DNA of 64,000 nucleotides, taken from assembly GCF_003236315.1 (NCBI RefSeq), contig NZ_POTY01000004.1:1-64000 (forward strand). Direction: 5' to 3'. The stretch comes from Micromonospora craterilacus. Lineage in GTDB: Bacteria > Actinomycetota > Actinomycetes > Mycobacteriales > Micromonosporaceae. Below the pieces are notes generated by a model that was not told the DNA's origin, made no database searches, and was given only the letters and a program-made list of their open reading frames with translations. Shown piece by piece: positions 1-16,300 of the stretch. Within the stretch, counting starts at the first letter, position 1. Every line of letters begins with the position of its first letter. The position numbers and the translations under genes were made by a program.

Positions 1-835
1 CGCCCACCCCGCCCATCCAGCCGCGTTTCGGGACGTTGCAGTTGATGACCGGCCCCCAGCAGCCGATCTTCACCTGGCACTTGGGCGAGTTGTAGTCCTT
101 GGCGAAGTCGGCCTGCTCGTAGTAGGCGGCCCGGTCGCAGCCCTCGTGCACGGTCTTGCCGAACAGCCACTGCGGCCGCAGCATCTGGTCCAGCGGCGGC
201 GGTGGTGCGGAGCCCGCGGCGTGGTAGAGCACCCAGGTCAGCGTCTCCATGAAGTTCTCCGGCTGGATCGGGCAGCCGGGCACGTTGACGATCGGCAGGC
301 CGCCCTGGGAGCGGTAGTCCCACCCGAGGTAGTCGGCCAGGCCCATGCACCCGGTCGGGTTGCCCGCCATGGCGTGGATGCCGCCGTACGTCGCGCAGGT
401 GCCGGCCGCGACGACCGCCCACGCCTTCGGCGCCAGCTGGTCGATCCACCAGTTCACGGTCAGCGGTTCGCCGGTCTTCTCGTCGTTGCCGAACGAGGTC
501 CAGTACCCGTCGCCGTTGATGTTCTCGTTCGGGATCGATCCCTCGATCACCAGGATGAACGGCTCGGTCATCTCCCCACGGGCGGCCTTCCGGTACGGCG
601 CCAGGAACTCCTCGCCGCCAGCCGTCGGCGACAACACCTTGTTGTGCAGGTTGACCTTTGGCAGGCCGGGAACGAGCCCGAGGACGACGTCCTCGATGGC
701 CGGCTGAGCGGAGGCGGTCATCGACACGGAGTCGCCGTCACAACTCATGCCCTCGGAGATCCAGAGGATGGTGACCTCGTCGTACCCGTTCTCCTGCGGC
801 AGCACCGCGGCGGGTTTCCGCACGCCCTGGCTCAT
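1..835 (-). CDS. [NiFe] hydrogenase small subunit, group 1h-like (partial, C-terminus off the window)
   Basis: Electron-transfer subunit of a [NiFe] hydrogenase; it carries the Fe-S clusters that take electrons from the large-subunit active site. The N-terminus is MSQGVRKPAA, followed by WISEGMSCDGDSVSMT, which resembles the proximal-cluster region of the actinobacterial high-affinity group (group 1h, formerly 5). Further on are AGTCATYGGIHAMAGNPTGC and VNVPGCPIQPENFMETL, both classic small-subunit cluster motifs. No twin-arginine leader is visible, as in group 1h. The ATG at 835 overlaps the stop of the last repeat-borne mini-ORF (ATGA), so its ribosome site GGAGCGAGG lies inside the repeat. 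The large subunit would lie beyond position 1. Uptake of atmospheric H2 is inferred from family. Confidence 0.93.
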   Translation of the reverse strand, partial: MSQGVRKPAAVLPQENGYDEVTILWISEGMSCDGDSVSMTASAQPAIEDVVLGLVPGLPKVNLHNKVLSPTAGGEEFLAPYRKAARGEMTEPFILVIEGSIPNENINGDGYWTSFGNDEKTGEPLTVNWWIDQLAPKAWAVVAAGTCATYGGIHAMAGNPTGCMGLADYLGWDYRSQGGLPIVNVPGCPIQPENFMETLTWVLYHAAGSAPPPPLDQMLRPQWLFGKTVHEGCDRAAYYEQADFAKDYNSPKCQVKIGCWGPVINCNVPKRGWMGGVG

Positions 836-915
836 GCTGCCACCTCGCTCCGCTCGGCGTCGACCTGAGCATTTTCTGCGCTGCGTTGCCGATTCACTCG
901 CTGGCGCTCGCTCAT
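832..915 (-). CDS. Mini-ORF copy 3 of tandem repeat (27 aa), next to the hydrogenase gene
   Basis: The third, most downstream unit of the repeat, read leftward, encodes a 27-residue charged peptide starting MSERQRVNRQRSAENAQ and ending SEVAA. Its ATG overlaps the stop of the preceding copy, and its TGA overlaps the ATG of the hydrogenase small subunit. It differs from the other two copies by two bases, both synonymous in this frame (Ala GCG to GCA). No known domain is recognised. It may act only as a coupling spacer rather than a functional peptide. Confidence 0.5.
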   Translation of the reverse strand: MSERQRVNRQRSAENAQVDAERSEVAA

Positions 916-1073
916 GCCGCCACCTCGCTCCGCTCGGCGTCGACCTGAGCATTTTCCGCGCTGCGTTGCCGATTCACTCGCTGGCGCTCGCTCATGCCGC
1001 CACCTCGCTCCGCTCGGCGTCGACCTGAGCATTTTCCGCGCTGCGTTGCCGATTCACTCGCTGGCGCTCGCTC
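834..1073. repeat. Three tandem copies of an 80-bp repeat between hypA and the hydrogenase gene
   Basis: Units run 834-913, 914-993 and 994-1073. Units two and three are identical; the first differs at two positions (T for C after ATGC, and in TTTTCTGCG versus TTTTCCGCG). Read leftward, each unit supplies a complete 27-codon ORF, a terminal ribosome site and an ATGA junction, so any number of units can sit between two coupled genes without breaking translation. I have a vague memory of similar peptide tails in Micromonospora and Salinispora annotation but cannot verify it here. Confidence 0.95.
912..995 (-). CDS. Mini-ORF copy 2 of tandem repeat (27 aa)
   Basis: Identical in sequence to copy 1. 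It is linked to its neighbours on both sides by four-base ATGA stop/start overlaps and lies in a different reading frame from either, because the 80-bp period is not a multiple of three. The end of each unit carries a GAGG-type ribosome site about seven bases before the next ATG. Confidence 0.5.
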   Translation of the reverse strand: MSERQRVNRQRSAENAQVDAERSEVAA

Positions 1074-1075
1074 AT
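992..1075 (-). CDS. Mini-ORF copy 1 of tandem repeat (27 aa), coupled to hypA
   Basis: First unit in the direction of transcription. Its ATG at 1075 overlaps the hypA stop (ATGA), and the GGGGAG at the end of hypA serves as its likely ribosome site. The product is a hydrophilic peptide rich in Arg, Glu and Gln, with no family recognised. Confidence 0.5.
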   Translation of the reverse strand: MSERQRVNRQRSAENAQVDAERSEVAA

Positions 1076-1470
1076 GCGTCCGCGCTCCCCGGGTCGTGGC
1101 TGGCCGCCGCCGGCACCAGCGCGGGCGGCTCGACGACGTCCACGGTGATCGACTCCAGGACCACGTCGTCGGTGCCGGTGACCTCGATGTCGACGCCACC
1201 GCACTGCGGGCAGGCCACCATCGCGAGGTGGTCGTCGACCGGCCCGCGGCGACCGCAGTCGTGGCAGGCCACCGTCATCGGTTCGAGCACCAGGTCGACG
1301 GCGGCGTCCGCGGCGACCGTGCCGGCCGCGGCCAGCTGGATGCCCTGCGTGACGACGCCCGGATCGACCGGATGGCCACCGATCCGGACCCGCAGCCCGG
1401 TGACCCGGCGCCCGGCCGCCCGGCGTACCGCCGCGTCCACGATCGCCTGGGACAGACCTGTCTCATGCAT
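1072..1470 (-). CDS. hypA: Hydrogenase nickel-incorporation protein HypA
   Basis: HypA delivers Ni to the hydrogenase large subunit together with HypB. The protein is 132 residues, close to the usual 110-135. The N-terminal Met-His-Glu (MHETGLSQAIVDAAVRRA) is the conserved nickel site. The zinc site is present as CHDC and CPQC near residues 72-92. The C-terminal tail is longer than usual and Ala/Pro rich. It overlaps the upstream protease gene by eight bases and is joined to the first mini-ORF by ATGA, so it belongs to the same leftward operon. Confidence 0.95.
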   Translation of the reverse strand: MHETGLSQAIVDAAVRRAAGRRVTGLRVRIGGHPVDPGVVTQGIQLAAAGTVAADAAVDLVLEPMTVACHDCGRRGPVDDHLAMVACPQCGGVDIEVTGTDDVVLESITVDVVEPPALVPAAASHDPGSADA

Positions 1471-2092
1471 GCGTGCTCACCCCCCGTTCGTTGCCACCTG
1501 CGGGCGTGCCCGGTGCCGCTCCCGCGCCGCGGGCCAACCGGGCGGCTTCCTCGCGGACGATCCCGACCACCGTCCGGACCGCCTCGTCGACCGCGGCGGC
1601 CACCGGAGCCGACAGCTTCATGCACTCGTCGAGGAGGGCGGGCTGGCAACCCACCACGAGCACCCGGTCGACGCTCCCACCCAGGCCGCGCAGCAGGCGC
1701 AGCACCGACTCGGGATCCATGCCGTGCGCGTCGGCGGCCGGCGCCTCCAGCACGTCGGCCGGCCGCAGCGTCCAGCCCGGGTCGTCGAGGTCCACCCGGA
1801 GCACGGCCAACGTCCCGGGCGGCTCGTCCATCGGTAACGCGTCCACCAGGACCAGCACGTCGTGCCGGCCGTCCAGCAGATCGTAGGCCAGATGCATTCC
1901 CCGGATCCCGTAATCGGACACGTCCACCCCCGGTGGGAGGACGACATCCCGCAGGCGCCGGACCACCTCGACGCCGAACGCGTCGTCGCCGAGGAAGATG
2001 TTGCCGATCCCGGCGACCAGGATCCGCCCGCTGCCTGCGCTGCTCACGCTGCTCACGCTGCTCACGCTGCTCACGCTGCCGGGGCCGGTCAC
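1463..2092 (-). CDS. Hydrogenase maturation endopeptidase (HyaD/HybD family)
   Basis: Peptidase that trims the C-terminus of the hydrogenase large subunit after metal insertion. The fold signature ILVAGIGNIFLGDDAFGVEV carries the nickel-binding acidic residue, and HDVLVLVDAL and VVGCQP follow as expected. GTG at 2092 overlaps the stop of the upstream gene (GTGA), giving 209 residues. The N-terminus before the fold is a low-complexity stretch from four 9-bp repeats (VSS repeated), and every repeat contains an in-frame GTG, so the true start is ambiguous. Confidence 0.9.
   Translation of the reverse strand: MTGPGSVSSVSSVSSVSSAGSGRILVAGIGNIFLGDDAFGVEVVRRLRDVVLPPGVDVSDYGIRGMHLAYDLLDGRHDVLVLVDALPMDEPPGTLAVLRVDLDDPGWTLRPADVLEAPAADAHGMDPESVLRLLRGLGGSVDRVLVVGCQPALLDECMKLSAPVAAAVDEAVRTVVGIVREEAARLARGAGAAPGTPAGGNERGVSTHA
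2039..2074. repeat. Four tandem 9-bp repeats at the 5' end of the hydrogenase protease gene
   Basis: GCTGCTCAC on the plus strand is repeated exactly four times. On the coding strand it reads GTGAGCAGC, coding Val-Ser-Ser. Copy number can change without a frameshift, and each copy offers a GTG start codon. Confidence 0.9.
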
Positions 2093-3501
2093 GGTGCCGC
2101 CACCTCTCCGGTCAACGGCTCGACCTCTTCGGGCCGGAAGTGGCGCAGCCGTCCGTACCACTGGTGCAGCTCCGCGCCCGGGTCGTCGTCCACCGTCACG
2201 GCCAGGAACCGGGACCCGTCCACGTCGAGCAGCACCTGCTCCACCCGGGCGGTACGGCCGTCCAGGAACATGTCGTGCGCGTCCGTGCCGCGCCGGCGGG
2301 GCCGTAACCGGACCCGGCTGCCCCGCGCCAGCAAAGTCCCCGCGACCAGCACGGTCCCGGTCTCCGGCGTGATTCCCGCGTCGGCGCCCGGCTCCCACCA
2401 CGGCCGGTCCGGTCCGGTGTCGGCCTCGGTGTTCCGGCGTACCGGCGCCAGGGACCGGATGGCGCCGTGTAGCCGTTCGAGCACCTCGGGCGGCATGTTG
2501 TCGACCCGGTCGACGATCGCGGCCGCCCGGGGATCGGTGGCCCGCGCCTCCCGCTTCTCCGCGTCGGAGAGTGTGAGCGTACGCAGCGAGAGGATCTCGT
2601 CGATCTCGGTCGCGTCGTGTAGGTCGCCGGGGCTTTCCGGCGCGATCTGCGGGTGGTCGTAGAGGATGATGGGTGACGAGAGCAGCACGTCGACGGTGCC
2701 CGGCTCGCCGGCCAGCACCGGGAACGTGTGCACGTTGCGGCACTCCCGCGCCGCGCTCGCCGCCCACTCTGGCGGGTCGAGCAGGGACAGGAACCGCCCC
2801 CGGCTGACACCGACCACGGTGTGCGCCGCCAGCAGGCAGCAGCGCAACGCCTCGTCCCGCGGACTGTCCGGTGGGGTGGTCGGGTCCGTGTTCTCCACCC
2901 GGATCCGCAGCCGCAGCAGGCGGAACGGCGCCTCGGTCGGGGCGGCCGAGACGGTGACCGACGCGGACAACGGCCAGCGCCGGCGCACCACCCGCCCGAC
3001 CGGCTCACCCCGAGCGTCGACCAGCGGCTCGACGTCCTCCCCGCCCGGCACCCGGACGTCGATGCGGCACCCCTGCCGCAGGTCGCCGATCGACGCCTCG
3101 ACGTCGTACTCCTGCGGCACCGCCTCGTCGAAACTGAGCTCGGTGCGGCCACCGGCCTCGATCCGGTCCACCGGCCGGTACCCGCCGTCGGCCGTCCGGT
3201 TCTCGGCCACCTTCCGTTGCAACTGCAGGAACCGCAACCGGACGTGGACCGTCGCGGTATCCGGCGCCTCCACCAGGCACTCGGTCTGCTGCCACGGCGA
3301 CTCCGCCGAGCCGGCCACGCCGCTGTCGACCAGCCCGTTCGCCTCGCCCCACGCCGGCGGCACCAGCACACCGAACTGCCAGCGGACCCGGTTCTTGCCC
3401 GAGGAGCGCCGGTAGGGATAGAGCAGGTAGCCCTCGTACAGGATGGCGTCCGCGACCGCCTCGGCGCCCTCGATACGGGAGCTGGGGCGATCGGTCGGCA
3501 C
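2089..3501 (-). CDS. Hydrogenase-operon conserved protein of unknown function
   Basis: Not recognised by function. A hydrophilic protein of about 470 residues with no signal peptide or membrane segment. It begins VPTDRPSSRIEGAEAVADAI, followed by ILYEGYLLYPYR and VRWQFGVLVPP. The last 60 residues look like a small beta domain (GTLLARGSRVRLRP, DVDGSRFLAVTVDDD). It is the first gene of the hydrogenase operon and is coupled by GTGA to the maturation protease, so an assembly or partner role is inferred. I recall unnamed proteins of this kind in group 1h hydrogenase loci. GTG at 3501 is preferred over TTG at 3510 because GGGGG lies nine bases upstream. Confidence 0.8.
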   Translation of the reverse strand: MPTDRPSSRIEGAEAVADAILYEGYLLYPYRRSSGKNRVRWQFGVLVPPAWGEANGLVDSGVAGSAESPWQQTECLVEAPDTATVHVRLRFLQLQRKVAENRTADGGYRPVDRIEAGGRTELSFDEAVPQEYDVEASIGDLRQGCRIDVRVPGGEDVEPLVDARGEPVGRVVRRRWPLSASVTVSAAPTEAPFRLLRLRIRVENTDPTTPPDSPRDEALRCCLLAAHTVVGVSRGRFLSLLDPPEWAASAARECRNVHTFPVLAGEPGTVDVLLSSPIILYDHPQIAPESPGDLHDATEIDEILSLRTLTLSDAEKREARATDPRAAAIVDRVDNMPPEVLERLHGAIRSLAPVRRNTEADTGPDRPWWEPGADAGITPETGTVLVAGTLLARGSRVRLRPRRRGTDAHDMFLDGRTARVEQVLLDVDGSRFLAVTVDDDPGAELHQWYGRLRHFRPEEVEPLTGEVAAP

Positions 3502-3671
3502 GGTGCTCAACCCCCTTCAGGGCATGCTCGCAACCCCGCTCGGGCGAGCGGTCACCCTGGTCTAACGCGCTCCGCCAGGCGGCCGTAAGTGCGTGCCGCC
3601 GGTACGTGACGGGCGCACTCACCCGACCCGGTGACCCGACGGCGGGTATGCCGCCGTCGCCCTGGGCGACC

Positions 3672-4253
3672 TCAGTGGTGCCTCGACGCCCGCTCGCCTT
3701 CCGTCGGATTCTGCGGTGATGACGGGACGAGAGCCCGTTCGAGTTTGGCGAGCAGGCCGACAAGGCTCGTGTGCTCGGCGGCGGTGAGCGAACCGATGAG
3801 ATCGGCTTCGTGATCGAGAAGCTGGCGCACCGTGCTTTCGACGAGACCGTGGCCGGTTTCGGTCAGTCGGACGGAGACCGCTCGGCGCGACGCGGACGAT
3901 GGTGATCGTTCAACCAGACCGGCCTGCTCGGCGCGGGCAACGCGTTGGGAGACCGCGCCGGCAGTGATCAGTGTCCGGCGGGTGATCTCGCGGGTGGTGA
4001 GCTCGTATGGCGGCCCCGAACGCCGGATCACGCTGAGCAGATCGAGGGTGGAGGGGTCGATTCCAAGTTTGGCCAGGGTGCGTCGTCGCTCGTCGGCGAG
4101 GACCTTCGCGATCCGCCAGATCGGCGTGATGATCTCGATGGACTCGGTGCGCACCTCGGGCAGTTCACGCCGCCAGGATGCGGCGATATCGGCTGCCGGC
4201 CACCGCGAGGGCGTTCCCGCCGGGTAGTCCTCGCCGTCGAGGTCGTTGCCCAT
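3672..4253 (-). CDS. MarR-family transcriptional regulator
   Basis: A 193-residue winged-helix regulator. The HTH core is ELTTREITRRTLITAGAVSQ, followed by RVARAEQAGLVERSPSSASRRAVSVRLTE, the MarR recognition helix and wing. The N-terminal 35 residues are extra compared with a typical MarR. It has a good ribosome site (GGGAGGG) and starts 53 bases from the divergent SDR gene, with a 14-bp palindrome between them. It probably represses itself and the SDR gene; the ligand is unknown. Confidence 0.92.
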   Translation of the reverse strand: MGNDLDGEDYPAGTPSRWPAADIAASWRRELPEVRTESIEIITPIWRIAKVLADERRRTLAKLGIDPSTLDLLSVIRRSGPPYELTTREITRRTLITAGAVSQRVARAEQAGLVERSPSSASRRAVSVRLTETGHGLVESTVRQLLDHEADLIGSLTAAEHTSLVGLLAKLERALVPSSPQNPTEGERASRHH

Positions 4254-4272
4254 CAGACGCCCTCCCGTGTAC

Positions 4273-4286
4273 GTTTAGCGCTAAAC
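4273..4286. promoter_or_regulatory. Perfect 14-bp palindrome, likely MarR operator
   Basis: GTTTAGCGCTAAAC is its own reverse complement. It lies midway in the 53-bp gap between the divergent marR and SDR starts, about 20 bases from each, where a bound dimer would block both promoters. Operator function is inferred. Confidence 0.7.
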
Positions 4287-4306
4287 ATATCAGGGGAGGG
4301 GTACCT

Positions 4307-5032
4307 GTGCGTCGTATCGTGCTTGTCACCGGCGGCGGGAACGGCATCGGCAAGGCCGTGGCCGCCCGGTTCCGATCCGGGGGCGACACTGTGATCATTA
4401 CCGGACGCGACGCCGACCGCCTCACCAACACGGCAACCGAGATCGGTGCCCGACCGGTCCCGTGTGATGCGACCGATCCGCAGCAGGTGGCGCAGCTGGC
4501 CGACGACCTGGGCGCGGACCTCGACGTCCTGGTCAACATGGCGGGCGGCAACACGGATCTCCACCAGCCCGACGGCAAGGGCACACCGCTGGAACAGGTG
4601 CTCGCCGCCTGGCGGGCGAACCTGGACGGCAACCTGCTCAGCGCGGTGCTCACCACGACGGCAGTGCTCGACAAACTGCGGCCGGGCGGCTCCATCATCA
4701 ACATCGGGTCCATCGGCGCCGAGTACGCCTCCACCTCCTACGGTGCGGCAAAGGCGGCCCTGGCCGCATGGACCGCGGGGCTGTCATCGACGGTGGGCAC
4801 CAAGGACGTCACGGCGAACCTGATCGCTCCCGGCTACATCGCCGGAACCGGCTTCTTCCACGGACAGCTCAGCGAGCAACGGCGAACGGCCCTGATCAAC
4901 GCCACTCACAACAAACGAGTGGGGCAGCCCAGCGACATCGCCGAAACCACCTACTTCCTGGCCTCCGCCGGCGCACGCCACATCACCGGACAGACCATGC
5001 ACGTCAACGGAGGCGCTCACACCACCAGATGA
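4307..5032 (+). CDS. SDR-family NAD(P)-dependent oxidoreductase
   Basis: Classical short-chain dehydrogenase of 241 residues. The Rossmann motif TGGGNGIG is near residue 8; NMAGG replaces the usual NNAG; a catalytic Ser lies in INIGSIGAEYAS, and YGAAK supplies the Tyr/Lys pair. The C-terminus has the GQTMHVNGG signature. GTG at 4307 follows a strong AGGGGAGGGG site, favoured over the longer upstream reading. It is divergent from the MarR gene and probably under its control. The substrate cannot be deduced. Confidence 0.93.
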   Translation: MRRIVLVTGGGNGIGKAVAARFRSGGDTVIITGRDADRLTNTATEIGARPVPCDATDPQQVAQLADDLGADLDVLVNMAGGNTDLHQPDGKGTPLEQVLAAWRANLDGNLLSAVLTTTAVLDKLRPGGSIINIGSIGAEYASTSYGAAKAALAAWTAGLSSTVGTKDVTANLIAPGYIAGTGFFHGQLSEQRRTALINATHNKRVGQPSDIAETTYFLASAGARHITGQTMHVNGGAHTTR

Positions 5033-5079
5033 TCGTTCGATCCTGCCGGCTCGGCTCCGGACGGTGCGATCATTGTCCG

Positions 5080-5535
5080 ATGACGGCATGGCGGGACGTC
5101 GAACGGGCAGAGCCGGAGTTCGCGCAGCGCGTACGCGCACTGTTCGACGCTCACCGACACAAGACCATCGCCACCGTGCGAGCCGACGGATCGCCGCGCA
5201 TATCGGGGATCGAGGCGGTCTTCCAGGACGGTGAACTCGCTTTCGGCTCGATGCCGAACGCGCGCAAGGGCGCGGATCTGCGTCGGGATCCACGGTTCGC
5301 CCTGCACAGTGCCACAGTCGACCCGGTCGAGGGCGCCGAGGCACAGTGGCCGGGCGAGGCGAAGATCTCGGGTCGGGCGAGGGCTGCCGGATCAATCACC
5401 GAAGGACCAGACGCCGACCGATTCCACGCCGACATCGCCGAGGTCGTGCACACCCACCTCGACCCCGAAGCCACGATGCTCGTCGTCGAGTGGTGGACGC
5501 CTACGCAAGGGCTGCGAAGGGTCAAGCGCCAATAA
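5080..5535 (+). CDS. Pyridoxamine 5'-phosphate oxidase-like flavin/F420-binding protein
   Basis: A 151-residue split-barrel protein. HKTIATVRADGSPRISGIEA and GELAFGSMPNARKGADLRRD are typical of the PPOX-like family that includes actinobacterial F420-dependent reductases. It ends with a trp-rich strand (MLVVEWWTPTQGLRRVK). The start is the ATG at 5080. It follows the SDR gene in the same direction after 47 bases and may be co-transcribed. Enzymatic role unknown. Confidence 0.85.
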   Translation: MTAWRDVERAEPEFAQRVRALFDAHRHKTIATVRADGSPRISGIEAVFQDGELAFGSMPNARKGADLRRDPRFALHSATVDPVEGAEAQWPGEAKISGRARAAGSITEGPDADRFHADIAEVVHTHLDPEATMLVVEWWTPTQGLRRVKRQ

Positions 5536-5853
5536 CGGGTGCCCGCAGGCGCCGACACCGCCCGCGTTGGCCCTGGTGGTGGTCGGCGTGCTGCACCACG
5601 TCGCTCTCTCCTATGGAGCCAACCCGACAGCGGACACCCGGATTCGCCGCGCGATCACCGCACTGACCGGCGGCTTCCCGGCCGTCGCCCCGTCCTGACC
5701 CGACTTCTCGCCGGCCGGACGGCCACAGCCGCCGCAGGCGACGCCGCCGGAGGTGGTGTGCAGCGCACCCCGGTCGAGTGTGAAAGGCTCGCCAAGGGCG
5801 GTTCACCCGTCTTCGTTCGTGTGGCCTGACCGTGCCCGAGAAGGAGACGAACC
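5536..5853. other. Intergenic stretch with a possible gene remnant
   Basis: No complete gene is supported. One plus-strand frame (about 5560-5698) reads a short hydrophobic segment, ALALVVVGVLHHVALSYGAN, and then a polar tail to a stop, which could be the end of a decayed membrane protein. No start or ribosome site accompanies it. The last 20 bases hold the ribosome site of the next gene (GAAGGAGA). Confidence 0.3.
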
Positions 5854-6537
5854 ATGGACATCGTGCTCGTCGCTGGCCTGTGGCTCAGCGGCTCTGTATG
5901 GGACGACGTCGCCTCCGCACTCAAGGCCCTCGGCCATCGCCCGGTGCCGCTCACCCTTCCAGGTCAGGGCGACGGATCCGCCTCAGCCACCCTCGACGAC
6001 CAGGTCGCAGAGGTGCTCGCCGCCGTCGACTCAGCGTCCGAAAGGCCCATGGTGGTGGGGCACTCCGCCGCCTGCACCCTGGCCTGGCTGGCCGCCGACG
6101 CGCGACCGGAGCAGGTCGCCAAGGTCGCCATGATCGGCGGCTTCCCGTCCGCCGACGGGGCGTCCTACGCCGGTTTCTTCGAGCTCAAGGACGGCGTGAT
6201 GCCCTTCCCCGGCTGGAGCCCGTTCGAAGGGCCGGACTCGGCCGACCTCGATGAGACGGCCAGACAGCGCATCGAGGCGGCGGCGATCCCTGTCCCCGAG
6301 GGCGTGGCCAAGGGCGTGGTGCGGCTGGCCGACGAGCGACGGTTCGACGTCCCGGTCGTGCTCGTGTGCCCGGAGTTCACACCCGCCCAGGCCCGGGAGT
6401 GGATCGAGGCCGGCGAAGTGCCCGAGCTCGCCAAGGCCAAACACCTCGACTTCGTCGACATCGATTCGGGTCATTGGCCCATGGTCAGCAAGCCGATCGA
6501 ACTCGCCCGACTCCTCTCGGCAGCGGCTGCCGCCTGA
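5854..6537 (+). CDS. Small alpha/beta-fold hydrolase
   Basis: A 227-residue soluble hydrolase. The nucleophile elbow GHSAA puts the Ser at residue 71. The family opening IVLVAGLWLSGSVWDDV has the loop that precedes the first helix, and the C-terminal His is in DIDSGHWPMVSKP, a common end for this EstA/HNL-like group. The GAAGGAGACGAACC leader is a strong ribosome site. It stands alone between two intergenic gaps. The substrate is unknown; esterase or lactonase is likely. Confidence 0.9.
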   Translation: MDIVLVAGLWLSGSVWDDVASALKALGHRPVPLTLPGQGDGSASATLDDQVAEVLAAVDSASERPMVVGHSAACTLAWLAADARPEQVAKVAMIGGFPSADGASYAGFFELKDGVMPFPGWSPFEGPDSADLDETARQRIEAAAIPVPEGVAKGVVRLADERRFDVPVVLVCPEFTPAQAREWIEAGEVPELAKAKHLDFVDIDSGHWPMVSKPIELARLLSAAAAA

Positions 6538-6636
6538 CCTGGCGTCGTAGCCGGGGACGCGCAAGGCGAGGGAGTGCGCCGCCACCCCCACAAGGGGAGG
6601 CACCCACCGCCTTCTGGACGAGGCCGTGGGCGTCGG

Positions 6637-8034
6637 TCACGGGGTGTGTCCTTCCGTGCTGAGCAGGACGACGACGGCGTCGTGGTCGAGGTGGAGGGCG
6701 GCGCGCCGCTGCGGGTCGGCGAGAGCGGCCCGGACGCCGGCCAGGGTGGCCGCGCCGCTCGGGCCGGAGGAGACGCCAAGCCGACCGAGGTCGTCGACGG
6801 CGCGGAGCGCCTCGTCATCGCTGACGGCCACGGCTGCGTCGCAGCCCGCCCGCAGCACCGGCCAGGCGGAGCCGGAGATGGTGGGGCAGTTGAGGCCGGC
6901 CATCACCGTCGCCGCGGTGGACACCGTCACCGGCCGGTCTGCGATCAGGCTCGCCAGCACGCATGCGGCCGTGGCGGGTTCGACCGAGAGGATGCTTGGG
7001 CGGGCGGCGTCTGGGCGTCGGTAGTGCCGCACGACCGCCTCCGCCAACGACCCGACCCCGACCGGGACCGCCACCAGGTCCGGCGGTTCCTTGAGCTGGG
7101 CGTCGACCTCCTCCAGCAGCGTCTGGTAGCCATCCACGATCCAGGCGGGCACCTGCTCGTACCCGTCCCAGGCGGTGTCCTGGACCAGGGCCCGGTCGGG
7201 CTGCTCGTCGGCGTACTCGGCGGCCCGCCGGACCGCAGCGTCGTAGTCGCCGTCCACCCACACGACCTTCGCGCCCTCCCCGGTGATGCGGGCCGCGGTC
7301 TGCGGGAGCATCACCTCAGGCACGAACACGGTCGCCTCGACACCGAAATGCGCCGCCATGCGGGCGACCGCACGGCCGTGGTTGCCGTCGGTCGCGGTCA
7401 CCAGCGTGGCGTCGGGACGCTGCGCAAGCACCTGGCGGCAGGCCCAGGAGGCACCAAGCACTTTGAACGCCGGCAGCCCCAGCCGCGACGACTCGTCCTT
7501 CACCAGCACCCGGCCGACGCCGAGTTCGGTCGCGAGTTCGGGGACAGGAACCAGCGGCGTGGGCGCATACCCGGGCAGCGACCGGTGGAACGCGTGAGCG
7601 TCACTCAGCGCGGACGGGCCGACCCAGCCCCGGGCCGTCGGCGAGCAGTACCACGACATCATGCGGATCATTCTTCCCGCCACTGCGGCCCCTGCTGCGG
7701 CGCCCAGGCCGGCAGCCGTTGGTTCGGGTTGGCAAGTGGTGCAGAACCGGGCCGATGGCCGATGCGCCAGCTGTTCGATCGGGATGTCGCAGCGACACAC
7801 CTCGCAGGTCCCGTAGCGGCCCTGTTCAAGGTAGTGCAATGCCCGGGCGATGTCGGCCAGGGCCAGCCGCGACGCGGCGGCCATGGCGGAAGCGGCCTCA
7901 AGATCTGCCCGGTCATGGGGCATCTGGTGGGCCTGCCGGGCCAGCAGCGCCAGCTGGGTGCTGTGCCGCTCGTACTGCTTCTCCAGGATGATCCGCAGCA
8001 TGCCCAGCTCGTTCTGCCTGCTCACGACGTACAC
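6637..8034 (-). CDS. Fusion: DksA/TraR-type zinc finger plus diaminopropionate ammonia-lyase-like PLP enzyme
   Basis: One uninterrupted frame of 465 codons joins two domains. Residues 1-110 form a DksA/TraR protein: a helical hairpin, then C77-E-V-C80 and C98-T-T-C101 as the zinc ligands. A linker rich in Ala/Gly leads to Met125, where a fold-type II PLP enzyme begins (MSWYCSPTARGW). The lysine is K191 in LGLPAFKVLGAS, and ATDGNHGRAVAR is the phosphate-side motif; both match diaminopropionate ammonia-lyase, which also uses D-serine. GTG at 8034 has AGGAAGG nine bases before it. A weaker GGGAAG precedes Met125, so separate internal initiation is possible. It is downstream of a D-amino-acid oxidase-like gene. 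Confidence 0.85.
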   Translation of the reverse strand: MYVVSRQNELGMLRIILEKQYERHSTQLALLARQAHQMPHDRADLEAASAMAAASRLALADIARALHYLEQGRYGTCEVCRCDIPIEQLAHRPSARFCTTCQPEPTAAGLGAAAGAAVAGRMIRMMSWYCSPTARGWVGPSALSDAHAFHRSLPGYAPTPLVPVPELATELGVGRVLVKDESSRLGLPAFKVLGASWACRQVLAQRPDATLVTATDGNHGRAVARMAAHFGVEATVFVPEVMLPQTAARITGEGAKVVWVDGDYDAAVRRAAEYADEQPDRALVQDTAWDGYEQVPAWIVDGYQTLLEEVDAQLKEPPDLVAVPVGVGSLAEAVVRHYRRPDAARPSILSVEPATAACVLASLIADRPVTVSTAATVMAGLNCPTISGSAWPVLRAGCDAAVAVSDDEALRAVDDLGRLGVSSGPSGAATLAGVRAALADPQRRAALHLDHDAVVVLLSTEGHTP

Positions 8035-8067
8035 GGTTGAGCGTCCTTCCTGTGCGGGGGATGAGAG

Positions 8068-8099
8068 AACGGGCGGAGCGCTGATGCGCTCCGCCCGTT
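8068..8099. terminator. Perfect 14-bp stem, 4-base loop hairpin between oxidase and lyase genes
   Basis: AACGGGCGGAGCGC pairs fully with GCGCTCCGCCCGTT across a TGAT loop. It lies 34 bases before the start of the DksA/ammonia-lyase gene and about 140 bases after the oxidase stop, on their common leftward transcript. No U-tract follows, so it could be a terminator, an attenuator in the leader, or an mRNA-stability element. Confidence 0.75.
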
Positions 8100-8238
8100 G
8101 GTGCCGGTCATGCGGGATGTCGGCCGTTGTGGTGGCGGTCGGTGCTGGCCGGGCTGCCGCCGGGTCGGCAAGGGCGCACGCTCGGCCCTGGCGGTGCCCC
8201 GGCGACCGCACGCACTGCGGACACGACGCGGTGGCGCG

Positions 8239-9501
8239 TCAGCGCAGCGGGTCGAAGGGCTGGAGTTCCGCAGGCTGCTGGCTGGTGGTGATCTGCTCGG
8301 CGAGCAGCTTGCCGGTGAGCGGGCCAAGCGTGATGCCCCACATGCCGTGGCCGCCAGCCGCGAAGACCCGCGGTGACCTGGTACGGCCGATCAACGGCAG
8401 CCCGTCGGGGGTACAGGGCCGCGCCCCGACCCACTCGTCGGCGCGGGCGTCCAGGTCGGCGCCCCGCAGCAGCGGCCGGGCGGCCTCGGCGATAGCCAGG
8501 ATCCGGCGACGGTCCAGCGGAGCCTCGGCGCGACGGAACTCCATCATCCCGGCGACACGCAGCCGGTCTCCGAGGGGCGTGCACGCGACCCGCTGCGCTG
8601 GGAAGTACACCGGACCGGCCGGGACGTGCTCGATCGCGACGCTGAAGCTGTACCCGCGGCCGGCCTGCACGACGGTGCGGACGCCGAAGCGCCGAGCCAG
8701 CTCGCCGAGCCACGTGCCGGTTGCCAGCACGGCCGCGTCATAGCGATCGTCCGTGCCGGCGGAGGTGATCACTCGGACCCCGGCTCCCTCGTCGCGGACG
8801 TTCACGACGTCCGCTCCGGTGACGAGCGCTGCCCCGCGCGCGCGAACGGAATCGGCGAGCGCGTGCACATAGTGCCCGGGGTCGATGAACCGCTGACCGT
8901 GCAGGCGGATGGCCGCGCCGATGTGGTCGGACAGCGAGGGTTCCACCTCACGCGCCTCGGCCCCGGTGAGGACGTCGAACTCGATCTGTTGGCCCGCGGC
9001 GTGGATGTGGCCCAGCTCGTCCAGAAGGACCGACCGTTCGGCCTCGGTCCGGTACGCCGCGACGAACGACTTCGCCTCGTTCGTCATCGAAGCGACCCCG
9101 GCGGCCGCCAATGCGTCGAACGCCTCGAACGCCCGCCGGTTCATCGGAATGTAGGCCTGCATCGCGGTCCGCCATTTCGAGGCGGTGCTGTGCCGCGCGA
9201 AGCCCGCCAAGAATCGCAGCAGCCGAGCGTCCGCGCGTGGCGGCACGTAGACCGGCGAGGACGGGCTCAGGACGGCGCGCAGCCCGTAGCGGAGCACCGC
9301 GGGCTCCGGCAGGGGAGTGGTGATGCCGGGGGTGAGCCAGCCCGCGTTGCCCCACGACGCGCCGGCGGCCACACCCGTGCGGTCGAGCACGGTGACCCGT
9401 ACGCCCCGCTCCTGTAGGAACCAGGCGGTGGCCAGTCCGACCATCCCCGCACCGATGATGGCAACGTGCGCAGGGGCAGGCACCGCCTTCATGGCAGGCA
9501 T
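8239..9501 (-). CDS. FAD-dependent D-amino-acid dehydrogenase/oxidase (DadA-like)
   Basis: A 420-residue DAO-fold flavoenzyme that oxidatively deaminates D-amino acids or glycine-type amines. The dinucleotide fold is VAIIGAGMVGLATAW near residue 13, followed by ASWGNAGWLTPG, a hallmark of the DadA group. The C-terminal FAD motif VFAAGGHGMWGITLGPLTGK is complete. No membrane anchor is seen. It lies upstream of the ammonia-lyase fusion on the same strand and is divergent from a PucR regulator, suggesting an inducible D-amino-acid or diaminopropionate breakdown unit. The substrate is inferred, not shown. Confidence 0.92.
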   Translation of the reverse strand: MPAMKAVPAPAHVAIIGAGMVGLATAWFLQERGVRVTVLDRTGVAAGASWGNAGWLTPGITTPLPEPAVLRYGLRAVLSPSSPVYVPPRADARLLRFLAGFARHSTASKWRTAMQAYIPMNRRAFEAFDALAAAGVASMTNEAKSFVAAYRTEAERSVLLDELGHIHAAGQQIEFDVLTGAEAREVEPSLSDHIGAAIRLHGQRFIDPGHYVHALADSVRARGAALVTGADVVNVRDEGAGVRVITSAGTDDRYDAAVLATGTWLGELARRFGVRTVVQAGRGYSFSVAIEHVPAGPVYFPAQRVACTPLGDRLRVAGMMEFRRAEAPLDRRRILAIAEAARPLLRGADLDARADEWVGARPCTPDGLPLIGRTRSPRVFAAGGHGMWGITLGPLTGKLLAEQITTSQQPAELQPFDPLR

Positions 9502-9563
9502 TCGCTCTCTCCTTCAAGAACAACTGGGATTGCGGCAATCTTGTCCCCGCCCGATCGGGACGT

Positions 9564-9616
9564 CATTGTTCTGGCAGGCCAATGTTCGCTCGTCCGATTG
9601 GGCGAAACGAACAATG
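9564..9616. promoter_or_regulatory. Inverted CATTGTTC/GAACAATG pair in the oxidase-pucR gap
   Basis: CATTGTTC at 9564-9571 is matched by its exact complement GAACAATG at 9609-9616, the second copy overlapping the proposed pucR start codon. A related AATGTTCG lies between them. The placement between divergent genes suggests PucR binding sites, but this is inference. Confidence 0.45.
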
Positions 9617-11197
9617 CCGAGGCACAATCTGAAGGTGATCACCGTGGCTGGCGTGGCCGACGCGGTCGGTGCCGCGTTGCTCAAGATCGTCGTCCCCGCC
9701 GCTGCGGCGGAGGTCCGCGATGTGGCCCTCGCTGACCTCGGCGATGCGACGACCGGCCAGACGGGCGACCTCGTCCTCGGCGCGGGCATCACCACACCCG
9801 ACCAGGCGCTCGCTGTCATCGAACGCTGTTCGGAGGCGGCGGCGGCCGGCCTCGTTCTCAAGCCTCCGCTGGCCGCGCTCCCTGAGGTGATGTCATCCGC
9901 CGCCGAACGCAACCTGGCCCTGGTCGAGCTGCAGAGCCACGGCTCGTGGGCCCAGCTTGTCTGGCTGCTCCGCGGGGTGATCGACAGAGCTGCCGCGCCC
10001 GGCTCACCCGAGACCGGGGAAGCCCGGGTCTACGACGAACTGTTCGCCCTTGCCGACGCGACCGCCGCCATCGTCGACGCACCGGTGACGATCGAAGATG
10101 CCCAGTCCCGGGTGCTCGCCTACTCGTCGAGGCAAGACCGCACCGACCCGGCGCGCGTCTCGACCATTGTCGGACGACGCGCCCCCGGCGATGTGGTCGC
10201 GCACTTCCGTTCCCGCGGCGTCTTCCGCAAGCTTGCCACGGGCAGTGAGCCGATCTACGTGCCGCAGGGACCGGACGGGACGTTGCCGCGACTCGTGATC
10301 CCGATCCGCGCCGGAGGTGAGCTGCTCGGCTCGATCTGGGCCGTCGTCGAGGGTCTGGTGCCACACGAGCGCCTACGCGATCTCCAGGGGACCGCCTCCG
10401 TGCTGGCGCTCCACCTGCTCCGCCTCCGCGTGCAGGCCGATGTCGCACGCCGGGTCTCGGCTGACCGCCTGAGGGCGGCCTTGCGGGCCCCCACCGGGAA
10501 GGGACGGGAGGAACTGGGCCTGCCCAAGGGTCCGTGGCAGGTCGTCGCGCTCGGTGCCCACGGCGGGACGGGGGAGATGGTGCACAACGTGGCCCTCTGG
10601 GAGTCAATCACCCGCCGTCACGGCTGGCGCCAGCCGCTGATCGCGGACGTCGGGGACGTCCTGTTCGCCGTGGTGACCCACGAGGGCGACTCGCCCGGCT
10701 CCCGGCGCTGGATGGACAGCCTCATTCACGACGTCGCCATGCATGACCCGTCGCTGCGAGCCGCGTCCGGCCGCGTCGCCAGGGACCTGACGGACCTGCC
10801 GCGATCACGCGCCGAGGCGGCGGAACTGCTCGCGCTGCACCGCTCGGCTCGACAGCCTGGGCCACTGCTGCGGTTCGCGGACGTCTGGGCCGAGGTCGTC
10901 GTACACCGCGTGGTCAACGCGATGCCGCGGGACGACCTGCTGGTCGGCGGACCGCTTCCCGACCTCGTCGCCCATGATCGGAAGCACGGCACTGACTACG
11001 TCGCCACTCTCGCCGCATGGCTTGAGCACCAGGGTGATCTGAAGAAGGCCGCCCAGCAGTTGCATGTGCACCCCAATACGCTCCGGTACCGGATGCGCCG
11101 CCTGACTGAGGTCGTCCACATCGATTTCGAGTCGCCGCGCACACGGCTCGCGCTGCAGATCCAGCTCGCGGCGCTCGTCCTGGGTCCTGACGGGTGA
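9614..11197 (+). CDS. PucR-family transcriptional regulator
   Basis: A 527-residue regulator. The N-terminus resembles the PucR purine-catabolism domain (VITVAGVAD, then GDLVLGAGI). The middle has a GAF-like region (ADATAAIVDAPVTIEDAQSR, then LVIPIRAGGELLGSIWAVVE). The C-terminal HTH is GDLKKAAQQLHVHPNTLRYR followed by MRRLTEV, the family signature. ATG at 9614 is chosen; GTG at 9635 is an alternative, since neither has a clear ribosome site. It is divergent from the oxidase gene and is the likely activator of the oxidase/ammonia-lyase genes. Confidence 0.92.
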   Translation: MPRHNLKVITVAGVADAVGAALLKIVVPAAAAEVRDVALADLGDATTGQTGDLVLGAGITTPDQALAVIERCSEAAAAGLVLKPPLAALPEVMSSAAERNLALVELQSHGSWAQLVWLLRGVIDRAAAPGSPETGEARVYDELFALADATAAIVDAPVTIEDAQSRVLAYSSRQDRTDPARVSTIVGRRAPGDVVAHFRSRGVFRKLATGSEPIYVPQGPDGTLPRLVIPIRAGGELLGSIWAVVEGLVPHERLRDLQGTASVLALHLLRLRVQADVARRVSADRLRAALRAPTGKGREELGLPKGPWQVVALGAHGGTGEMVHNVALWESITRRHGWRQPLIADVGDVLFAVVTHEGDSPGSRRWMDSLIHDVAMHDPSLRAASGRVARDLTDLPRSRAEAAELLALHRSARQPGPLLRFADVWAEVVVHRVVNAMPRDDLLVGGPLPDLVAHDRKHGTDYVATLAAWLEHQGDLKKAAQQLHVHPNTLRYRMRRLTEVVHIDFESPRTRLALQIQLAALVLGPDG

Positions 11198-11264
11198 CTC
11201 TGGGATCCGAAAGCTCTGCTGCCGCCCACGAACCTGACTCCACTGGACCCGGAGGAGAACCGTC

Positions 11265-11360
11265 ATGGAGACGACCCGGGCGACCCGTCGCGAGTGGCGG
11301 GGGCTGGGGACCGTCCGCCCCGGCACACCCGGTGCGGACGGTCCGACGACCGTCAGGTGA
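11265..11360 (+). CDS. Possible 31-codon leader-like ORF
   Basis: An ATG preceded by GGAGGAGAACC opens a short frame starting METTRATRREWRGLG and ending at 11360. The ribosome site is good, but the frame runs through the hairpin at 11308-11344 and resembles no known protein. It may be only the tail region of the pucR transcript. Confidence 0.25.
   Translation: METTRATRREWRGLGTVRPGTPGADGPTTVR
11308..11344. terminator. Hairpin after pucR (11-bp stem)
   Basis: GGACCGTCCGC and GCGGACGGTCC are exact inverted repeats with a 15-base loop. It lies between two convergent genes (pucR and the DUF11 protein) and could end transcription from the pucR side; no U-run follows. Confidence 0.6.
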
Positions 11361-11420
11361 GGTCAGCGGCGGTTGCCGCTGCGGCCCAGGCGGCGCGGGC
11401 CGGCTGAGGGCGGGGAGCCG

Positions 11421-13100
11421 TCAGGACTCCGGCAGGATGCCGACGTCGACGAAGGTCTCCGCGCCGTCGTGGATCTCGATCAGTGCGCTGAGTCCGTAGG
11501 GGTAGTAGCCGCCGACCATCGTGATGATGTCCGAGTCGGTGGCGTCGTCGCCTTGGTCGGGAGTGGTGAACTGGGTGCTGCTGCCCTGCGGGAGGCGGAC
11601 CTCAACGGTGTACCGGCCCGGCTTCAGTCGTCCCCGGTAGGTCCCCGTCACCGAGTTGGTGTTGATGATTCCCCAGCCCGGCGGCAGCTGGCCGGTTTCC
11701 GGCACGGCCCGGTAGGAGGCGACCTTGTTCAGGGCCATCGGCTCGTCGGCGTCGCGCTGGCCGTCCCGGTCAAGGTCGAGCCAGACGTGACCGGTGATGA
11801 CGCCCTCGGCGACATAGTTAACGCTGCCGGTGGCGGTGTTGTTCTCTAGCGACGACTCTGGCGAGGACGCGGACGCGGTCGCGGTGAAGGTCAGCGGACC
11901 GTCGGGGGTGCCGGGGTTCACCTTGAGCTTCAGAAGCAGGCCGGCGTTGCCCGTGGCGATGTCCCAGAAGGCGCGGGTGCACTCGACGAAGCGGCCGTCC
12001 GCCGCGTCGTCGAGTCGGCAGGTCCAGTTGGCGTCACCGGGGTCGAGGGAGGTCGGCTCGACCGTGGGCGGGAGCGGTACCCGAACGGCCACGTTCTCCG
12101 AGGGGCTGCCGCCTCGGACGCCGAGGTGGACAGACAGGTCGAACTCGTCGCCGGCGCGTACGTCGACGCGTCCCACCACGTTGGCCCCGAAAAGCTCCAC
12201 GTCGCCGACGGGCGGCACGACATAGGTGAAGGTGGTGGTGCCGCTGTTGTTCGTCAGCGACCGCTCGGTGGCCGAGGTCGACACCGAGGCGGTCACGGTC
12301 CTGGTGTCGCCCACAGTTCCGGCCGGGAAGTAGGGGTAGAGGTTCAGGTAGGCGGCCCCGCCCGGTGGGATCTCCCGGTCGTTGTCGCAGACCCAGGTGG
12401 AGGTGGAGAGGTCGCAGTTCCAACCCGGGTCCGGCGTCCACGCGCCGACGAAGGCATCCGGCGGCAGCTGGATGGTGAAGCGGGCGTCGGGCGCCGGGGT
12501 GGTGCCGATGTTGGTCGCCCGGGCCTGGACAAAGCCGCGTGCGCCGTTGCCGCCCAGGTAGGAGATCTCGCCGCTGCTGTACTCGAACGAGAAGGCGAGG
12601 TCTGGCATGGCGACGTACTCGATGTCCGCCGAGGCCGTGTTGTTCGTGGTCGATGATTCGCGGCTCTGCGTGGTGGCCGTCGCCGTCACCGTCCCCTTCT
12701 GGCCGCCCGTCCCAGGCGGCAGGATGAGGCTCAGGACGAAGCTGGCGTCGGTGCCCGCAGGGAGAGTGCCGTACGTGCATTTCAGCTTGGCGGCGTCACA
12801 GGTCCAGCCGCCGAGGTAGTCGCCGAAGCTGAGGGTGGACCCGGGCGGCAGCGTGAGCTTGATGGTGCTGTCGGTGGCCTCGGCGCTCCCGGCGTTGCGC
12901 ACCGAAACGCCGAGGCGGACCCGGCCACCATCCGGGCCCACCTCGCCCGGCTCGGCGGTGAGGCCCAGGACGACATCGGCGCGATCCGGGGCGGCGGTGG
13001 CAGTGCCGGGCAAAGCGGTGAGCAGTGACGCGACTACAGCGGTCGCGAGGGCCCCCGCCAGCGTGCGCAGGGTTGCGGCACGCAGGTTGTGGTTGACCAT
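11421..13100 (-). CDS. Secreted DUF11/CARDB-repeat protein with SdrD B-like end
   Basis: A 559-residue extracellular protein. A Sec signal peptide (ATLRTLAGALATAVVASLLT, cleaved near TATA-APD) is followed by three or more Ig-like DUF11 repeats, each ending in a pattern such as SSTTNNTASADIEY or SLTNNSGTTTFTYV. The last domain (ITGHVWLDLDRDGQRDADEP) is an SdrD B-like repeat of the calcium-binding surface type. There is no LPXTG or transmembrane anchor, so it is released or held non-covalently. Adhesive or structural surface function is inferred. It stands alone between two hairpins. Confidence 0.9.
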   Translation of the reverse strand: MVNHNLRAATLRTLAGALATAVVASLLTALPGTATAAPDRADVVLGLTAEPGEVGPDGGRVRLGVSVRNAGSAEATDSTIKLTLPPGSTLSFGDYLGGWTCDAAKLKCTYGTLPAGTDASFVLSLILPPGTGGQKGTVTATATTQSRESSTTNNTASADIEYVAMPDLAFSFEYSSGEISYLGGNGARGFVQARATNIGTTPAPDARFTIQLPPDAFVGAWTPDPGWNCDLSTSTWVCDNDREIPPGGAAYLNLYPYFPAGTVGDTRTVTASVSTSATERSLTNNSGTTTFTYVVPPVGDVELFGANVVGRVDVRAGDEFDLSVHLGVRGGSPSENVAVRVPLPPTVEPTSLDPGDANWTCRLDDAADGRFVECTRAFWDIATGNAGLLLKLKVNPGTPDGPLTFTATASASSPESSLENNTATGSVNYVAEGVITGHVWLDLDRDGQRDADEPMALNKVASYRAVPETGQLPPGWGIINTNSVTGTYRGRLKPGRYTVEVRLPQGSSTQFTTPDQGDDATDSDIITMVGGYYPYGLSALIEIHDGAETFVDVGILPES

Positions 13101-13244
13101 AAATCCCCCGTCTGGTCGTCATGGCACGACGGCCTCCGGCGCACCAGGAAACGCCCACAGGCCCGATCGGGATCTTGTCCCCATCGATCAATAAGGCGTT
13201 CCGGCATCGAAAAGCGTTACAGTCGTGGGCCATCCGACGGGCTG

Positions 13245-13288
13245 TCACCCGGCGACACCGCCGCCCTCGCGGCTATGTCGCCGGGTGA
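13245..13288. terminator. Perfect 13-bp inverted repeat downstream of the carboxylase gene
   Basis: TCACCCGGCGACA and TGTCGCCGGGTGA flank an 18-base loop that can itself form a small CCGC/GCGG stem. It begins about 20 bases after the stop of the leftward carboxylase gene, a normal terminator position. Confidence 0.75.
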
Positions 13289-13308
13289 TGGTCACACCCC
13301 GGCGCCGG

Positions 13309-16300
13309 TCAACGCAGTCGTGACTCGATGGCTTCGATGACGCGCGGACGGAGTTCGGCGGCACGGATGACGGCGTCGACGGAGCCGACCTCGACCGCGC
13401 GCTGGATGTTGTGCACCCGGTCGAACTCCGTGGCCACCTCGCCGAGCTTCTCCGCGCGGACCGACGAGCGGAGCTCGTCGACCTCCGCGGTCAGCGCGGC
13501 GCGGTCGGCGCCGGAGGCGGACGCCGCGCGGGCCTCCAGGTCCCGTACCCGGGGATCGGCCGCGGTGCGGGCGGCGACCTCGCCGGAGAACACCACGGCA
13601 GCGGCCGGAGCGCCACCGAGCACCGAAGCGAACGAGCCTTCCAGCGCCAGCACGGTCATGTTCGGGTTCAGCGCCTTCGAGAACACCACGAACGCGCCAC
13701 CGTGGTACCGCGAGATCACGCAGAACACGATGGGTCCGCGGAAGTTCACGATCGCCCGGCCGATCTCGGCGCCGTACTCCAGTTGCAGCTTCCGCATCGA
13801 CTCGGGCGAGCCGTCGAAGCCCGACAGGTTCGCCAATACCACCAGCGGACGGTTGCCGCTGGCCGCGTTGATCGCCCGCGCCGCCTTCTTCGACGACCGC
13901 GGGAACAGCGTGCCCGCGGTGTAGGTGTCCGGGCCGTCGGTGGGCGGGAAGCCGCGCCGCGGTACCGTCCGCGACTCGATGCCGAGCAGGCACACCGGCA
14001 TGCCGCCGAGGTGCGCGTCCTGCACCACCGCGGTCTCCGCGTCGGCCATGCCCGCCCAGCGTTCCAGCACCGGGTGGTCCTGGTCGGAGAGCGCCCGCAT
14101 CACCGTACGGATGTCGAACGGCTTCTTGCGGTCCGGGTTGGCCGCGACGGAGAAGATCTCGCCGACGGTGGTGAAGTCACTGCCGGCCACCACGTGCGGG
14201 AAGTCGGAGATGTCGCGGTCGGTGGGGTCGGTGCTGGTCGCCCGCCGCGGCGTCTCCTCGCCCGGTGCGACGTACGTGTGCTCGTAGTGCGACATCAGCA
14301 CGTCCCGGGCGGCGGCCAGGTTCGGCGCCCAGTACTGCGCCTGCCCGTTCGGGCCCATCACCCGGTCGTAGCCGCCGATGCCGAAGTTGTCCTCGGCGGA
14401 CACTCCACCGGAGAAGTCGAGCGACTGCTTGCCAGTGAGCACCATCGCCGAGTCCGGCGTCATCACCAGGACGCCCTTGGTGTGCATGAGCATCGTCGCC
14501 TCGGCGTTCCAGTACGGCTGCGCGCCGACGTTGATGCCCGCGACCACGATGTTGATCTCACCGCCGTCCTGGGTGAACTCGACGATCCGCTTGAGCGCCG
14601 CCGCCACCCAGTCCATGTTCTCGGTGCCCGACTTCATGGAGATCCGGGCGCCGGCGGACAGCGCGTACCACTCCAGTGGCACCCGCATCCGCTCGGCCAG
14701 GTCCAGCGCGGCGACCACCCGGCGGCACTCCGGCTCCGACAGCGCACCCAACGACTTGGTGGGGTCGCCGAGCAGCACCACCCGGGTGACACCCTGCGGG
14801 TGCCGCGAGGTCGGTGTGGTGACCACGCCGGCGACGATCGCCGCGCTGTTGCGCCCCTTCGGTCGGTCGACCGGCACCAGCGTGTGGTCGTCGTCGAGGT
14901 CGTGCTCGACGAAGTCGCCGAGCAGACCGGTCAGCTCGTACGGGTACACCGTGTTGCGACTGCTGGCCCGCAGCACCTTCAGCCGGTAGTCGTCGAGCGG
15001 CTCGACCGGCTCGACCGGCGGCTCGCCGACGGTCAGCTCGGCGCCGCCGGTGGCGCCGAACGAGATCCGTACGGCGATCTTGGTCAGCTCGCCGGTCTTA
15101 CGGTCGCGCTGGCGCGCGATGAACAGGATCTCCTCCAGCCCGGCGCCGGCGGTCGTCGGGCGTACCCGCCCGGCGATCGTCTCCATCTCCTCGCGGGTGA
15201 GGTCGCTCGGCGGCCAGACGTAGATCACGATCCGGTTGGTGTTGAAGCGGGTCTTCGACGGTCGCTGCGACTGCGCGCGGCGGATCGAGTCGAGGCAGGC
15301 GGCGACGGTGTCCTCGGTCGTCGGCAGCGCGACCAGCCGGCCGTCGTGCTCACGCAGCTCGGTCAGGTCGCGCACCTGCGCGAACGCGACGAGGCGCCCG
15401 TCGGAAGGGTTCTCCCGCGCCACGCACTGGAAGAGGTAGACCTCCTCGTCCGACGACGGCAGCCGGGTCAGGTCGAACTTGTGCAGCCGCTCCAACTGCA
15501 TCCGCTGCGCGATGTACGGGTGCAGGCCGCGGATCAGCCGCTCCTCGGTCATCCCCGTGCCCGACGGGCGGAACGTGAAGTGGTGGTGCATCACCGCTCC
15601 GCCGCGACCGGCGACGGTGGTGGTGAGCCGGCGGACCTGCGGGGGCAGCGGGTGCGCGTTGATCACCTCCAGCAGCGCCGCCGCCGTGGCGTCGTGGTCC
15701 TCCGGCTGGTTCTCCCAGACGAGGTAGATGTCGGCGTCGACGGCCTGCTCGCCGCCGACCAACTCGGCGAGCCCGCGCAGCGCGCCGCCCAGCGCGTCGA
15801 AGCGCACCGCGGCGGAGACCACGCTCGAGTCCGCCCGCTCGGCGACCACGAACGTGCCGCCCCCGACCGCGTGGGTACGGACGCCGGCGAGCGCCTTGTT
15901 GCCGTAGTACCGCCGGGTCAGCACCTCCAGCATGACCGCGTTGTCGAGGTGGTCGCGGACCAAACGCTGACCGAGCAGCCGGACCAGCGGCTCGGTGCTG
16001 CGTACCATCTCGGCGACGCGCTCGGCGCGGTCCGGCGAGTCCGGCTGCGCGTCCAGGTGGCGCAGGTGCTTGCGGACCTCGGCGTAGACCCGGGCGCGGT
16101 TGCGGCGCAGCAGCGGCTGGGCGAACCAGGCGAACACCACGCCGCGGGCGAGGTCGGCGACCACCGGGAAGCGGACCTGGGTGGCGGCCACCAGCCGCTC
16201 CAGGGCGAGACCGGCCGGCTCGCGCAGGGTCTCGTCCGGCGGAGGCTCCCGCAGCCAGCCGCGCAGCAGCGCCGCGACGACGGTGGCGTCGGCGGACGCG

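Follow-up and report, generated by a model that had tools for sequence, protein, structure and literature searches.

An in-frame DksA-lyase join in Micromonospora craterilacus, probably a recent chance gene fusion

Two described families in one frame

The C-terminal helix of DksA/TraR proteins contacts the beta lobe of RNA polymerase. The DxxDxA motif at the tip of the coiled coil is also tied to action on RNA polymerase, and proteins of about 105-114 residues that lack DxxDxA and the C-terminal helix have no DksA-like action (PMC9239242). Diaminopropionate ammonia-lyases (DAL), represented by YgeX and the PRK08206 family (PDB 4d9i, 5ygr), are PLP enzymes of fold type II. With N-terminal tags, the activities of the E. 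coli and Salmonella enzymes fell from 80 and 190 U/mg to 3.9 and 4.0 U/mg, a 20- to 50-fold loss (PMC4000059).

We analysed a stretch of 64,000 nucleotides (the window) from Micromonospora craterilacus, family Micromonosporaceae, in which a first-pass annotation had reported both families within one stop-free frame. The assembled sequence confirms a single in-frame DksA-lyase join. The fused open reading frame (6637-8034, minus strand, 465 codons) runs from a GTG at 8034 to a stop codon at 6637-6639 with no internal stop; from stop to stop it spans 533 codons, and a nominal start is possible as far as 8211. It encodes, in order, a DksA/TraR-type C4 module, a linker of about 20 codons (105-124, the length first claimed) and a complete diaminopropionate ammonia-lyase-like enzyme. 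The identities first given to the two domains also stand, and each half has clear orthologues, which rules out a chance match or a wrong reading frame.

The N-terminal module (codons 1-104, 7723-8034, minus strand) comprises a coiled coil (residues 6-37 and 42-70) and a zinc finger that reads CEVC-x17-CTTC. It thus shares with E. coli DksA and F-plasmid TraR a C4 finger of the form CxxC-x17-CxxC behind a coiled coil. The Pfam match to zf-dskA_traR (residues 72-102, 3.9e-4) scores 20.8 bits, slightly below the curated cut-off of 24.9, and the similarity to DksA structures is weak (E = 0.0016). In the AlphaFold model, pLDDT is about 75-80 for the coil and 48-64 for the finger; the input alignment contained no relatives for the zinc-finger half, which makes this half of the model weaker.

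Small DksA-like genes orthologous to this module were detected in about 14 of 160 congener genomes (roughly one in 11; the genomes in this genus sample are of about 7 Mb), including G130, G056 and G047. Their products are 57-88% identical to the module and the genes often lie beside dadA, as in the window, where a dadA-like FAD amino-acid dehydrogenase gene (8239-9501, minus strand) is immediately upstream of dksA, a synteny common to several congeners, and a PucR-type regulator gene (9617-11197, putative start, plus strand) is divergent from dadA. Each of the orthologues has its own stop codon, at about 102 to 221 codons and after unrelated tails, whereas dksA in the window has none. The neighbour beyond dksA differs in most congener genomes, and the 3' side of the gene is generally unstable across congeners. 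In G080 (L099, L124) the dksA gene has 178 codons because its tail runs into the antisense strand of a convergent dadA, and in G070 (L096) the tail lies in a 221-codon frame with Thr/Pro repeats.

The C-terminal half (6640-7662, minus strand, ancestral start Met125) matches Pfam PALP (residues 154-458, 5.5e-62) and passes the NCBIfam threshold for PRK08206, diaminopropionate ammonia-lyase (298 vs 276 bits). Lys191, Asp216 and Asp286 are invariant in 33 sequences and align with the E. coli enzyme, where they correspond to the PLP lysine Lys77, to Asp120 (the Asp of TDGNHG) and to the Asp of QDTAW; all three are shared with YgeX. The best sequence and fold matches are the E. coli and Salmonella diaminopropionate ammonia-lyases (best Foldseek matches, 30-34% identity), and pLDDT is mostly above 90. 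Compared with YgeX, the enzyme is shorter, falls below the cut-offs of TIGR03528 (227 vs 532 bits) and TIGR01747 (218 vs 274 bits) and carries a 124-residue N-terminal extension. On this evidence it is a fold-type-II PLP enzyme of the diaminopropionate ammonia-lyase-like kind, with a predicted substrate. Lyase matches at E <= 1e-25 were found in three of the 160 congener genomes. Standalone actinobacterial lyases, as seen in the best 80 loci of a scan over about 85,000 species (up to 82% identity), are the same enzyme with the same start codon but have a single domain.

Breakpoint and linker

The closest relative found, G130, carries the same genes in the same order upstream (PucR 92%, dadA 96% and dksA 88% identical) in unfused form. 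There, dksA terminates in a TAG at codon 109 and the next gene is phosphotransferase-like (assigned by eye), with no lyase behind dksA; in the window this stop codon is lost. DNA homology to G130 ends abruptly at 7730, about three codons ahead of the linker, and likeness to the CQPEP tail of congeners ends near 7719, which places the recombination junction at 7719-7730. Homology to G130 is restored at window position 3661; the corresponding point of G130 is on the same contig, 37 kb further on and colinear. The shared flanks thus enclose 4 kb in the window but 37 kb in G130 (a difference that is unpolarised), and the 3' end of dksA marks a rearrangement boundary. The accessory segment of about 4 kb (3662-7718) that stands in place of the 37 kb of G130 holds five genes: the lyase, an alpha/beta hydrolase (5854-6537), a PNPOx-like protein (5074-5535), an SDR (about 4313-5032) and MarR (3672-4253). 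No tRNA was found in window positions 1-14000, which rules out a tRNA-marked island boundary there. Near the contig end, at about 830-1080, the window contains a member of a repeat family with many partial copies (70-97%) across related genomes.

The linker (7663-7722, minus strand) is Ala/Gly rich, uses atypical codons and is predicted to be disordered, with pLDDT below 50 across residues 100-124. Third-position G+C is 0.61 in codons 105-122, whereas the two domains have 0.86 and 0.91; the mean relative codon frequency is 0.33 versus 0.57 and 0.54. Equally low codon scores occur in 0.3-0.4% of 12,900 stretches of the same length from other genes here. Its codon use suggests that the linker derives from DNA that was once non-coding. 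A search for its origin returned only a match of 23 bases (96%) in L122, away from the dksA gene there, which we dismiss as a G+C-rich chance match. In random DNA of the same G+C content, a junction of the length of the linker would be both open and in frame in about 25% of cases (computed), so that a fusion by chance would be easy.

We consider it probable that the frame is a recent, lineage-specific chance gene fusion that arose by rearrangement at the 3' end of dksA. On this view a small accessory DksA-like gene had a rearrangement-prone 3' end, where incoming DNA with an intact standalone lyase gene would have displaced the dksA stop codon, the new junction being in frame and open by luck. 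The lyase would thereby have been captured behind the promoter and ribosome-binding site of dksA. The expected product is a chimera in which a floppy linker joins the DksA module to the lyase, perhaps accompanied by some free lyase from Met125. The DksA half would then be carried along as a passenger tag, perhaps at a cost to lyase activity, and would have no targeting role. The absence of visible decay in either half speaks against an accident of this kind. If the reading is correct, the locus offers a snapshot of the birth of a fusion, with an unfused relative, a breakpoint, a lost stop, a missing regulatory region and a non-coding-like linker all in view.

The main remaining doubt, which a single draft assembly leaves standing, concerns the linker, where one base may be wrong. 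Such an error, or a mis-join, would hide two separate genes, dksA and the lyase, perhaps translationally coupled. The genome is represented by one draft of 609 contigs, and about 50 bases of G+C-rich linker decide whether the genes are fused; in one of the shifted frames a TGA overlapping ATG122 (ATGATC) would terminate dksA, a classical coupled arrangement. A point error, however, does not account for the lost dksA tail, because the DNA beyond 7730 is all different in G130. A gross mis-assembly is made less likely by the colinearity of G130 with both flanks of the 4-kb segment, even though the contig stops 6.6 kb past the lyase. The assembly is 99.99% complete and 0.04% contaminated. We regard the absence of a true fusion as rather improbable.

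The fusion was not found elsewhere in 160 congeners, 354 genomes of the family or 394 genomes of the class. None of the best 80 lyase loci of the GTDB scan contains an in-frame fusion, nor was a DksA match found within the flanks of the lyase (up to 4 kb) at these loci. Across these scans a widespread fusion is thus ruled out, and both domains share one frame in one genome only, not from the more than one independent genome that a conserved fusion family would show. Separate orthologues with a stop codon had been named at the outset as the finding that would count against the fusion. The orthologues of each half are indeed separate genes with their own stops and starts, which also fits a linker error, but they are not neighbours. 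Within its own genome, the fused frame is the sole copy of either close family, the remaining matches being distant paralogues, and no second copy of the junction was found. The papers searched contained no account of a DksA-lyase pairing.

Functional readings of the chimera

The first-pass annotation proposed an enzyme that is recruited to the transcription machinery. In a functional two-domain enzyme, the module would bind RNA polymerase or some other partner and either bring the lyase to it or tie the breakdown of amino acids to transcription. Both halves are intact and keep all key residues: the coiled coil, the C4 finger and the active site are in place, the linker is flexible, and the coil has a DxxD, reading DRAD, near its tip. 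The full DxxDxA is not kept, however. The tip reads DRADLE here; orthologues vary at this place, and in G146 and G079 it is shortened. No conserved sequence follows the last Cys among the orthologues, and the sole helix modelled past this residue (115-123) has a pLDDT below 50. The module therefore differs from E. coli DksA and TraR in having neither an intact DxxDxA nor the C-terminal helix. These two differences, together with the similar published proteins that are not DksA-like, lower the odds of action on RNA polymerase. In addition, the gene is found in about one in 11 congeners, which is not the distribution of a core RNA polymerase factor; the fusion occurs once, and its linker is non-coding-like. 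The proposal of recruitment to RNA polymerase is thus not borne out, and we consider a functional two-domain enzyme very unlikely.

A pseudogene is ruled out by the lack of signs of decay. The omega of the dksA half against G130 is 0.53, inside the family range and near its median of 0.38; one fused strain is known, so any statement on selection for the fused form has a single sequence behind it. That a working chimera places the PLP lyase at RNA polymerase or at another partner of the zinc finger, and that selection has kept this chimera since it recently arose, seems to us extremely unlikely. Were it true, amino-acid breakdown would be physically linked with transcription and, to our knowledge, the chimera would be the first enzyme with a DksA-type module. 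A single fused frame is poor ground for inferring a regulatory link. Given that N-terminal tags lower the activity of the E. coli and Salmonella enzymes, the chimera may work poorly as an enzyme unless cleavage occurs or translation begins at Met125; this extrapolates from enzymes that are only about one third identical.

Start of the lyase and leader of dksA

Met125 had been suggested as an internal start, preceded by a ribosome-binding site, for the lyase alone. The start itself holds up: the nearest standalone lyases begin at the residue aligned with Met125 (ATGACCTCCTGG in L013 vs ATGATGTCGTGG in the window), and no part of the lyase half is missing. The ribosome-binding site does not, since no strong site was found upstream of Met125; the duplex energy there (-5.3 kcal/mol) is equalled by about one third of random positions in the window. 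The dksA start is a GTG with AGGAAGG upstream and a duplex energy of -6.5 kcal/mol.

Standalone lyases are preceded by signals of their own. A search for CGCTGGACCT within 110 bases upstream of these genes detected it with at most one mismatch in 40 of the 80 best loci, compared with 1.7% of random stretches; the same figures hold for the motif written as CGCTGGACC(T). It is likely a regulator or promoter site. About half of the standalone lyase genes are divergent from a LysR gene with CGCTGGACC (a divergent LysR gene lies beside the lyase in 44 of the 80 loci). In the window, neither the motif nor a LysR gene is present upstream of the lyase. In L013-L092 the motif is located 30-110 bases upstream of the lyase, between it and the divergent LysR-type gene.

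The lyase might mainly be made alone from Met125 by internal initiation, in which case the continuity with dksA would be of little consequence. Although standalone relatives begin at the residue homologous to Met125, the ribosome-binding site is at background level, the upstream motif and LysR gene are missing, and ribosomes that start at GTG 8034 reach the lyase without meeting any stop; we consider this possible but unlikely. With the motif and LysR gene absent and the site before Met125 at background, the lyase is now likely expressed from the promoter and ribosome-binding site of dksA.

The leader of dksA contains a strong G+C-rich hairpin of 14 bp (8068-8099, core 8071-8096, minus strand), which is shared by most of the orthologous genes. 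Orthologues with another upstream gene, or with a divergent one, still have it, so the hairpin belongs to the dksA leader and not to a gene upstream; it is a possible attenuator. Finally, a tandem pair of DksA-like genes, 36% and 62% identical to the window module, is found at positions 1126-1821 of L120 (G330).
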